From NCBI GenBank assembly GCA_022572185.1, contig JACZWL010000008.1:1-64000 (forward strand): a stretch of 64,000 bases of DNA, given 5' to 3'. This document shows positions 4,491-29,985 of the stretch, piece by piece (the stretch's first letter is position 1; each line of letters begins with the position of its first letter). The translations under genes and the position numbers were made by a program. The notes beneath the pieces were generated by a model, which searched no databases, was not told where the DNA came from, and worked only from the letters and a program-made list of their open reading frames with translations. This DNA is from Pseudomonadota bacterium (GTDB lineage Bacteria; Pseudomonadota; Gammaproteobacteria; Steroidobacterales; Woeseiaceae).

Positions 4491-4635
4491 CAAAAAAAGC
4501 GGCCGGACCCCAATACTTGCTGATTTTGCGAGCGGCTTGCGTCGGGTGTGTTCCACGAGCGAGTTTAAAGCCCGAGCGAGCGGGATATACGCGACACAGG
4601 CCGTGAGCAGTCCCGCTGACAACAATCGGGTCTGT

Positions 4636-4865
4636 CCCACTGCTGTCCCATAAACGAATGTTGCTGCGGCTGGAACGAAGTGATTGTATGGAGTTCTGGT
4701 GGAGTGTCTCGTTACGGACATGGGTTGCAAGGCTTGTCTCAGAGGCCGTGGCCCGCAGGGATGCGGGCCCCGAGCCTACATGGACGTACTTGCGGCGTGT
4801 CTCTGAGACAAGCCTTGCAACTCATGTCCTTGATCGTGGTACCGGCTTTAGGGGACAGCAGTGGG
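4636..4865 (+). mobile_element. 230-bp hairpin-rich MITE-like element, copy 1
   Basis: It begins CCCACTGCTGTCCCATAA and ends with the near-complement (TTTAGGGGACAGCAGTGGG). Inside is a second inverted repeat of about 30 bp (centred on AAGGCTTGTCTCAGAG / CTCTGAGACAAGCCTT) and near the middle a GGCCCGCA-GGGA-TGCGGGCC hairpin. A copy of exactly the same length and about 90% identity by eye lies in opposite orientation at 27966-28195. No open frame of interest. The short flanks GGGTCTGT and TCTGTTCCC resemble the REP family near the RAYT gene. It fills most of the 391-bp gap 4491-4881; the remaining 4491-4635 shows nothing I can name. Confidence 0.85.
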
Positions 4866-4881
4866 TCTGTTCCCGATTTTA

Positions 4882-5301
4882 TTAGCAGCCGTCGGTATAA
4901 CTGATAACGACTGGCTCGGACTCCGGGTTCGGCGGGGGGATGTACAAAACGGCGCAGCCCGGTGCCGACAGCAACTCCCTGTGCTGCCAGTAGCCGACTT
5001 TGAACAGGAAATCGCCGCTGGTGACGACGACCTCCCTGATCGAACTCTCGGTCGGATAACCAAAGCGCATCTCGAGCATCCGTCCATCGACGGTGAGCCT
5101 GGCCGGCCGACCATTCGACAACCAGATGCGGTTGGTCAGATGAGCCGAACTCTGAACGTTGGTGGCAAGCGCTTCTACAGCGCCGGCCCGGATGTCCTTG
5201 TTGATTGCAGCAAAACGCGGCACGGCAGCGGCCGCGAGCATCGCCAGCACGGCTACCACTATCAACAATTCCGTGAATGTAAAGGCTCTTTGCAAGCTCA
5301 T
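4882..5301 (-). CDS. Type IV pilin-like protein, MshA-like
   Basis: 139 residues from the ATG at 5301 (a GTG at 5310 adds three). The prepilin signature is MSLQRA followed by FTFTELLIVVAVLAMLAAAA: a short basic leader, cleavage before Phe, Glu at mature position 5 and a hydrophobic helix of about 20 residues. The residue before the cut is Ala rather than Gly. The C-terminus has a Cys pair (GCAVLYIPPP ... YTDGC), as in the disulfide loop of MSHA and PilE pilins. No other MSHA genes are next to it; it lies just downstream of trpA with the 230-bp element after its stop. It could be a minor pilin of the type IV system encoded elsewhere in the window. Confidence 0.8.
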   Translation of the reverse strand: MSLQRAFTFTELLIVVAVLAMLAAAAVPRFAAINKDIRAGAVEALATNVQSSAHLTNRIWLSNGRPARLTVDGRMLEMRFGYPTESSIREVVVTSGDFLFKVGYWQHRELLSAPGCAVLYIPPPNPESEPVVISYTDGC

Positions 5302-5372
5302 CAGGGCCACCGAAAAAAGGCTTCTGACCCTTTTTACGCGTCCGGTGGCTGAGGTCTGTGACCGGAGTCACG

Positions 5373-27942: not shown

Positions 27943-27965
27943 GAAAGGGAGAAACCTCGGTTCGA

Positions 27966-28195
27966 CCCACTGCTGTCCCATAACGCCGGTACCACAATCA
28001 AGGACATGGGTTGCAAGGCTTGTCTCAGAGACACGCCGCAAGTACGTCCATGTAGGCTCGGGGCCCGCATCCCTGCGGGCCACGGTCTCTGAGACAAGCC
28101 TTGCAATCCATGTCCGTAGCGAGATGCATCGGCAGAACCCCACACAATCACTTCGTTCCAGCCGCTGATACATTAGTTTATGGGACAGCAGTGGG
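27966..28195 (-). mobile_element. 230-bp hairpin-rich MITE-like element, copy 2
   Basis: Same length as copy 1 at 4636 and about 90% identical by eye, in reverse orientation, with no gaps in the alignment. Here the outer ends are a perfect 18-bp inverted repeat (CCCACTGCTGTCCCATAA). The central 70-odd bases, including the GGCCCGCA hairpin, are identical in the two copies. Its flanks are GGTTCGA and TTCGACC, so the element may sit inside or next to another palindrome. It lies between the cupin gene and hemE (convergent). Confidence 0.85.
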
Positions 28196-28211
28196 TTCGA
28201 CCCTGGATTAC

Positions 28212-29273
28212 TTAATGGTATTGCGGGCTTAGTTTTCTCACGGCATCGATTACCACGCCCAGGTGGTCGGGGTCGATGTCCGGCGTTATTCCGTGCCCCA
28301 GGTTGAACACGTGCCCCGGACCCTGGCCGTAGCTTTGCAGTACTTCTGCTACCCGCTCTTCAATGACCTCCGGCGACTCCCGTAGTACGTCCGGATTCAG
28401 GTTTCCTTGCAGCGCAACCTTGTCGCGGGTCAGCTCGCGGGCTGTGCCAAGGTCTGTTGTCCAGTCGACTCCCAGCGCGTCACAATCAGTATCGGCCAAA
28501 TCAGTGAGCAGCGACCCAGCGCCTTTGGTAAACAGGATGATCGGAATAGTGTGGCCGTATTTCTGCCGGTTCAGCCCGTCCAGTATCCTCTGCATGGCGG
28601 ATAGCGAGAACCGGCGGTAGTCATCACCCTCGAGTGTCGCCCCCCAGGTATCAAAGATCATGACGGCTTGTGCTCCAGACTCGATCTGGGCGTTGAGATA
28701 CTCGATCGTCGTTGCGGTAATGACGTTCAACAGTGTCTCCATCATCGACGGTTCGTCCGCCGCCAGGGCTTTGATCTTCTCAAACTCCCTGCTCGACCGC
28801 CCTTCGACCATATAGGTGGCAACTGTCCAGGGGCTTCCTGCAAAACCGATCAGCGGCACCTTGTCATCGAGTTCGCGGTGGATGAGCGCGACGGTATCGA
28901 ATACGTAGCCAAGCTTTTCGCCAACATCCGGCACCGCAAGTTTCTTTATGTCTGCAACAGTTTGCACCGGTCTTTCGAATCGCGGCCCTCCGCCTGTTTC
29001 GAAATATAGTCCCAAGCCCATCGCATCCGGAATTGTCAGAATATCGGAGAACAAAATTGCAGCATCCAGGTCGAAGCGCCTTAACGGTTGCAGCGAGACC
29101 TCGCAGGCGAGCTCGGGATTACTGCAGAGGCTCATGAAGTCGCCTGCCTTTGCCCTGATCTCCCGATACTCCGGCAAATAACGGCCTGCCTGACGCATTA
29201 TCCAAACCGGTGTGCGCGGTACCGGCTGACGCAAGAGCGCCCGAATCAATAAGTCATTTTTCAACGGCGTCAT
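28212..29273 (-). CDS. hemE: Uroporphyrinogen decarboxylase
   Basis: 353 residues from the ATG at 29273 (a longer frame from 29357 overlaps pyrF). Signature [19 protein letters not shown] at the N-terminus, and [16 protein letters not shown]. The catalytic Asp is in [14 protein letters not shown]. Converts uroporphyrinogen III to coproporphyrinogen III in haem synthesis; hemW and cyoE in this window belong to the same or a following path. One nt separates it from the pyrF stop, so the genes are coupled. Confidence 0.97.
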
Positions 29274-29274
29274 G

Positions 29275-29985
29275 TCAGAACTGCGCCGCAATCGTCTGCT
29301 GAATGGAGTCGGCCGCAGCACGAGGACTTTCGGCGTCGCGGATCGGCCGACCGACAACGATGTAGTCCGCCCCGCTGGAAAATGCTTGCTCTACGGTAAC
29401 GACGCGCTTTTGATCGCCGATTGGGCGGTTATCGACCGGCCGAATACCCGGTGTAATAACCAGCAACTTGTCGTCGACATGTTCGCGCAACATCGGGACC
29501 TCGAGTCCGGATGAGATGACGCCGTCGCATCCTGCTTCGAACGCGCGGCGTGCTCTGGAGACGACCAGCGCTTCGACGTCACAGTCGAAACCAAGGTCAT
29601 CGAGATCGCCCCTGTCGAGACTCGTCAAGACCGTCACCGCGAGCACTTTCAGATCATTGCCTTTGTTTGCGGCCGCAGCCTCCATCATGGATTGGTTGCC
29701 GTGCACGGTAAGGAAACTTGCGCCACGATCCTTTAGCTGTCGTACTGCGGAACCGACCGTCGCTGGAATGTCGAAGAACTTCAGGTCCGCGAATACTTTC
29801 TTGTTCCGCTTGAGCATCCACTCCATCAACTCGAAATAGCCGCCGCTCATCATGAGTTCCAAGCCAAGCTTGTAAAAAGTGACTGAATCGCCCAGGTCTT
29901 CAGCGAGCGCTTTGGCCTGGTCGCACTCTGGCACGTCCATGGCGAATATCAGTCGCTCATTGGCGGGTATCGATTGTCCTGTCAC
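29275..29985 (-). CDS. pyrF: Orotidine 5'-phosphate decarboxylase
   Basis: 236 residues. Last step of UMP synthesis. The catalytic Asp-Lys-Asp set is in [14 protein letters not shown], and the phosphate region includes [12 protein letters not shown] and ITPGIRP. N-terminal [13 protein letters not shown] is typical. It is between dgt (upstream, 117-nt gap with a hairpin) and hemE. In this direction the gene set is aroK-aroB-dgt-pyrF-hemE. Confidence 0.97.

Follow-up and report, generated by a model that had tools for sequence, protein, structure and literature searches.

The window, a stretch of 64,000 nucleotides from a bacterium of the Woeseiaceae (contig JACZWL010000008.1), holds two inverted copies of a short hairpin-rich element. 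A sequence-only reading described them as copies of 230 bp without a transposase and left the family unrecognised. The question was raised whether they belong to a mobile family or to a duplicated fixed structure, and why the hairpin core is conserved.

Two copies in the window

Most of the earlier description could be reproduced. Positions 4636-4865 (+) and 27966-28195 (-) were identical at 211 of 230 positions (91.7%) without gaps, which agrees with the estimate of about 90% and with the opposite orientation. The ends pair as described, apart from a single mismatch in copy 1. For the inner inverted repeat of ~30 bp a length of about 28 bp was measured, and the middle of ~70 identical bases extends to roughly 75 at the centre. 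The equal size of the copies was retained as well, while their length had to be corrected: the element proper has 226 bp, and the outermost CC/GG is part of a 9-bp target duplication. Both copies are intergenic and lie at the 3' ends of the genes named before. Copy 1 adjoins the 3' end of a pilin-like ORF (4882-5310, -) and copy 2 that of the ORF 28212-29357 (-), called hemE in the earlier reading. The features are as follows.

4638..4863, + strand: copy 1 of the probable MITE, 226 bp; its core is turned against the frame in the derived (flipped) sense
4629..4637, no strand: left target duplication of copy 1, GGTCTGTCC; 8 of 9 bases equal to the right one
4864..4872, no strand: right target duplication of copy 1, GGTCTGTTC
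4638..4653, + strand: left terminal inverted repeat of copy 1, CACTGCTGTCCCATAA; the 16-mer also bounds other copies in the genome and a 1,273-bp IS4-family IS in genome G279
4848..4863, - strand: right terminal inverted repeat of copy 1, 1 mismatch
4716..4829, + strand: inner core of copy 1, ~30-bp stem around two hairpins (three-way junction); match of covariance model R1 at 4713-4829, 127 bits
4757..4762, + strand: hexaloop 1 of copy 1, AGGGAT (GC-ANGGAN-GC)
4780..4785, + strand: hexaloop 2 of copy 1, ATGGAC (UAC-ANGGAN-GUA)
27968..28193, - strand: copy 2 of the probable MITE, 226 bp
27959..27967, no strand: target duplication of copy 2, GGTCGAACC on the - strand; 9 of 9 bases identical
28194..28202, no strand: target duplication of copy 2, second side
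28002..28115, - strand: inner core of copy 2; R1 match at 28002-28118, 127.9 bits
28069..28074, - strand: hexaloop 1 of copy 2, AGGGAT
28046..28051, - strand: hexaloop 2 of copy 2, ATGGAC

The outer frame

A search of the genome of the window (3.14 Mb, 99 contigs) returned about 25 loci of the element. Only two copies, both at syntenic places in all relatives, would have pointed to a duplicated fixed structure; the element is no two-copy feature. Most loci contain the complete frame of 224-237 bp, usually 226 bp, which starts with CACTGCTGTCCCATAA or a close variant and ends with the reverse complement. With up to two mismatches, the CACTGCTGTCCCATAA pattern matched 45 times in this genome, compared with 2 matches of the reversed control pattern. 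The 9-bp target duplication agreed in at least 7 of 9 bases in 15 of 19 copies and was perfect in 7, whereas only 20 of 342 mismatched pairings of left and right flanks from different copies reached at least 7 of 9.

The exact 16-mer was present in 12 of the 369 genomes of the class. For G279, 16-mer ends bounding a complete unit of 1,273 bp were detected five times among the matches listed. The unit encodes an IS4-family transposase of 383 aa (DUF4372 and DDE_Tnp_1; NF033592, E 2.4e-80). Elements of 217-383 bp with quite different, unrelated interiors are enclosed by CACTGCTGTCCCATAA ends in other genomes, and in G371, which belongs to another family, the core again lies within a CACTGCTG frame. 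No transposase with matching ends was detected beside any of the ~25 copies. An autonomous IS with CACTGCTGTCCCATAA ends was not found in the genome of the window either, and its three PF01609 genes all lack these ends; as this genome is a draft, the missing IS is not proof, and an autonomous copy in the same genome is not required of a MITE.

The proposal of a mobile family without a local transposase is thus upheld by ~25 loci of one length, 9-bp duplications and ends matching an IS in another genome. Copies of the same length with differing flanks, target duplications and a transposase with matching ends had been named as checks; the first two were found in the genome of the window and the last in G279. 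That the outer frame is a non-autonomous IS4-family MITE, and that frame and core taken together are correctly identified, is in our opinion very probable. The element shares with IS4-family MITEs the short, coding-free build, IS-type inverted ends, a constant duplication and ends common to a full IS, but differs from them by a structured RNA cassette. Judging from the ends, the duplications and the matching IS, it would move, or would have moved, by an IS4-family transposase acting in trans, which would recognise the CACTGCTGTCCCATAA ends and duplicate 9 bp of the target.

Two loci with other flanks were observed. The full IS4-family IS at G279:C1:1398108-1399380 (L258) is flanked by long inverted repeats (~30 bp), not by direct ones, unlike most MITE copies. 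At G000:C12:5485-5723 (L034) the same terminal repeats enclose a different interior with a long palindrome (CGCGGCTGAAGCCGCTCCCAC), and the flanks are palindromic in place of a direct duplication. A dyad-symmetric target for the MITE seemed likely by eye, but was not significant.

Furthermore, the core occurs in both orientations inside the frame. In an alignment based on the core, most copies showed one orientation relative to the frame, and the window copies (together with L002 and L003) as well as L009 the other. Between L005 and a window copy the frame was 96% identical, and the core was 97% identical only when inverted (59% otherwise). Since two subfamilies show the flipped core, it was inverted within the frame at least twice. 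The break points fall in the arms. These near-perfect arms would allow the flip, probably by template switching or by recombination between them.

The inner core and its relatives

The 114-bp core also occurs without the IS4-type frame, namely in further genera of the same family and elsewhere in the class. In relatives of the same family 19 (G002) and 10 (G012) matches without these ends were detected; their ~30-bp arms vary from copy to copy, yet remain complementary. One unframed core was found in the genome of the window (C10:6432-6548). With R1 the core was identified in 73 of 369 genomes of the class and in 65 of 272 genera, and named carriers range from Yersinia to Marinobacter. Several genomes contain 33-120 matches, with a maximum of ~120. 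All 15 positive genomes of a phylum-wide search belong to the same class; as the classes of the negative genomes are not given, a restriction to this class is not claimed. Carriage of a 60-nt consensus by plasmids or phages was not found. The element combines two parts, the MITE frame and an independent inner element that is widespread in the class.

For the 114-nt core a folding energy of -83.6 kcal/mol (z = -10.7) was calculated, and none of 200 shuffled sequences was as stable. RNAalifold with 18 cores yielded a long stem and two hairpins in a three-way junction, with compensatory changes in 30 of the 44 pairs. Among 91 distinct R1 matches, mostly from other genomes, 94.6% of the cells pair (shuffled 56.0%, slid 33-44%), double changes affect 43 of 44 pairs and the covariation score is 0.893 vs 0.183. 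Covariation of the stems is nearly saturated. The suggestion of the earlier reading that the hairpin core is under selection is backed by this class-wide covariation and by the conserved loops. CGAGC and a TTYAC bulge are further conserved parts, whose conservation is not accounted for by CsrA.

The core could be compared with named elements. YPAL, or RU-2, of Yersinia (De Gregorio 2006; Delihas 2007; PMC2759123) has the same stem, ANGGAN-loop hairpin, CTCGAGCC-TAC-ATGGAT-GTA-TTTACGGCG and matching stem, and is dispersed and intergenic as well. The Y. pestis sequence printed in PMC2759123 includes the core, and R1 gave 68 matches in Yersinia similis (E 1.3e-14). YPAL measures ~168 bp, its inverted repeats are internal and not terminal, and its target duplications comprise 3-26 bp (PMC2229807), in contrast to the 226 bp, the IS4-type terminal repeats and the fixed 9-bp duplication of the window element. 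The latter contains a YPAL-like core and is not itself filed as YPAL. Rfam Ysr224 (Yersinia sRNA 224) showed a weak match on the antisense strand at L124:1326-1419 and other loci (best E 5.8e-6, below threshold); Ysr224 may be the transcript of a YPAL copy.

The Rfam family TwoAYGGAY (RF01731) scored above its threshold in G223 at loci where R1 reaches 82-91 bits. The same loci were found with both models, which thus describe the same kind of element there. TwoAYGGAY likewise has two AYGGAY-loop hairpins within a long stem, but is typed by Rfam as cis-regulatory and not as a mobile repeat. Its gathering threshold was reached neither by the window copies nor anywhere in their genome. A search of the window with Rfam gave no match, and one of the element chance-level matches only. 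The window loops are AGGGAT and ATGGAC, and the family overall has ANGGAN, not strictly AYGGAY. By sequence comparison, the core is that of YPAL, joined to TwoAYGGAY through bridging copies.

In the literature found, YPAL repeats, the orphan TwoAYGGAY RNA and transposon-framed repeats are described separately; they are joined here. The comparison suggests that all three share one core, which rides transposons through much of the class. The sequence-only reading did not recognise this core, although it is recognisable from YPAL and TwoAYGGAY, and missed the composite build and the CsrA-type loops. CsrA binding was already proposed for TwoAYGGAY (PMC4333381). What seems to be new is the connection with YPAL and MITEs, together with the scale; no paper naming both YPAL and CsrA was found in the literature searched. 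The frame is of an ordinary kind, an IS4 MITE; the remarkable part is its cargo, which belongs to a mobile RNA family that extends across the class and has CsrA-type loops.

The chromosome of Stenotrophomonas maltophilia SJTL3 (G687, via L172) carries ~120 copies of the core. Among the 108 copies listed there are 28 close pairs, with distances of 108-219 bp, and all of these are arranged head-to-head (minus then plus). REP/BIME sequences are palindromes of 20-40 bp with a terminal GTAG and are linked to RAYT. The window element differs from them as a framed element of 226 bp with a core of 114 bp, and no transposase gene was detected between the paired cores inspected. A REP/RAYT-like autonomous gene was considered for this position and rejected, as only ordinary genes such as aroA are located there.

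Hairpin loops and possible functions

According to the alignment columns, every one of 89 copies has ANGGAN as loop 2, and 77 of the 89 have it as loop 1; GGA is retained in most of the remaining copies, within a loop of different length. Columns were used because MFE folding alone is unreliable for the weak three-pair hairpin 2. As R1 was trained on ANGGAN-type loops, a contig scan with loop 2 as six free letters served as unbiased test. ANGGAN was recovered in 78 of 79 cases, and each of the two N positions showed all four letters. On the antisense strand, GGA was present in 4 of 191 loops.

High-affinity sites of CsrA/RsmE consist of an apical CANGGANG hexaloop, and two of them are optimally spaced ~18 nt apart (PMC4894983). 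In the core, the two ANGGAN hairpins are spaced by ~23 nt, and the variable loop positions are precisely the two N's of the CsrA/RsmE motif. Furthermore, 15 copies contain RUACARGGAUGU, the in-vitro-selected consensus from the CsrA literature, letter for letter. Both loops match a CsrA/RsmE-type site almost perfectly, and judging from this motif the core most likely binds CsrA. For an in vitro assay we would expect binding with good confidence. A csrA gene is present in the genome of the window. Among near-complete genomes of the class, the element occurs in 58 of 280 with csrA and in 1 of 34 without (Fisher p = 0.009), an association confounded by small csrA-less genomes (genome reduction) and by shared ancestry.

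Altogether, a composite mobile element, in which an IS4 MITE frame carries a CsrA-binding RNA cassette, appears to us the likely explanation, held with some reserve. Transcribed on its own strand, the core would form a long stem displaying the two ANGGAN hairpins, a fold backed by covariation, and these would most likely bind dimeric CsrA/RsmA. Copies read from neighbouring promoters would either withdraw CsrA from the free pool or bring it to the host transcript. An influence on host regulation is conceivable, but we rather doubt it.

The hairpin might instead work on the end of the host mRNA, where it would stabilise the transcript or expose it to RNase III, the loop sequence being incidental. 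Such a role was already proposed for YPAL and other bacterial MITEs; YPAL was reported to be co-expressed with upstream genes, and an effect on transcript stability was suggested (PMC2229807). The very stable fold and the short distance to gene ends (median ~50 bp) are in agreement with it. A pure stabiliser, however, requires no set loop letters, yet both loops are A-GGA while the stems are saturated. In tandem gene contexts, determined by crude ORF calling, 19 cores are in sense and 23 in antisense orientation. A cis-regulatory strand bias was rejected on these counts, and its absence argues against a simple cis or 3'UTR role. We regard this explanation as unlikely.

Slightly less probable again is that loops and junction are read as single-stranded DNA by a recombinase or a hairpin-binding transposase moving the core, in which case the loops would resemble CsrA sites by chance. 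The core is mobile apart from the IS4 frame and has no known enzyme of its own, its ordered head-to-head pairs recall REP/BIME elements, and the conserved junction and bulge letters lie outside the loops. However, both loops follow the CsrA consensus in their fixed letters as well as in the two free positions, the selected 12-mer is matched exactly by some copies, and no candidate enzyme lies between paired copies. A functionless MITE, in which a palindromic passenger has similar loops only by recent common descent, fits the close relation of the copies within the genome of the window, but is very improbable, being already contradicted by arms and stems that show nearly all pair types across the class while the loop letters are fixed.

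If the preferred reading of a CsrA-binding cassette is followed, mobile DNA may scatter CsrA-binding RNA over many bacterial genomes. CsrB/CsrC/RsmX/Y/Z are sRNAs from single loci with many sites and own promoters. Like these sponge RNAs, the core has GGA hairpin loops in pairs, by which CsrA would be held, but it is dispersed and mobile, with two sites and no promoter shown. More tentatively, and with less expectation than for a regulatory effect as such, the class-wide family could act as a CsrA sponge distributed over the genome: between some tens and more than 100 copies per genome would lie in several transposon frames, each with a two-hairpin site, and in some genomes there would be head-to-head pairs of which either strand gives a CsrA-binding RNA. 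In this case, the amount of free CsrA in the host would be determined by mobile DNA. Provided that CsrA is indeed bound, the copy number of the repeat would be a heritable means of adjusting a global regulator, and the puzzle of the exact loop retention in such repeats would become testable. For the pairs of SJTL3, transcription of either strand would give one GGA-bearing core, and this pairing may be a reason for the lacking strand bias in that strain. In the genome of the window each frame has one core, so the pair explanation is not applicable there.

Some further arrangements of the core were observed. Five tandem cores on one strand, with a period of ~227 bp, are located at G580:C1:94413-95440. 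In two different genomes, an aroA-like gene has inverted cores on both sides (L158:2325-3898 and L109:444-2007). At L274:1257-1516 (G371) an extra hairpin is inserted in loop 2 of the core, and a similar insert motif was detected in L266.
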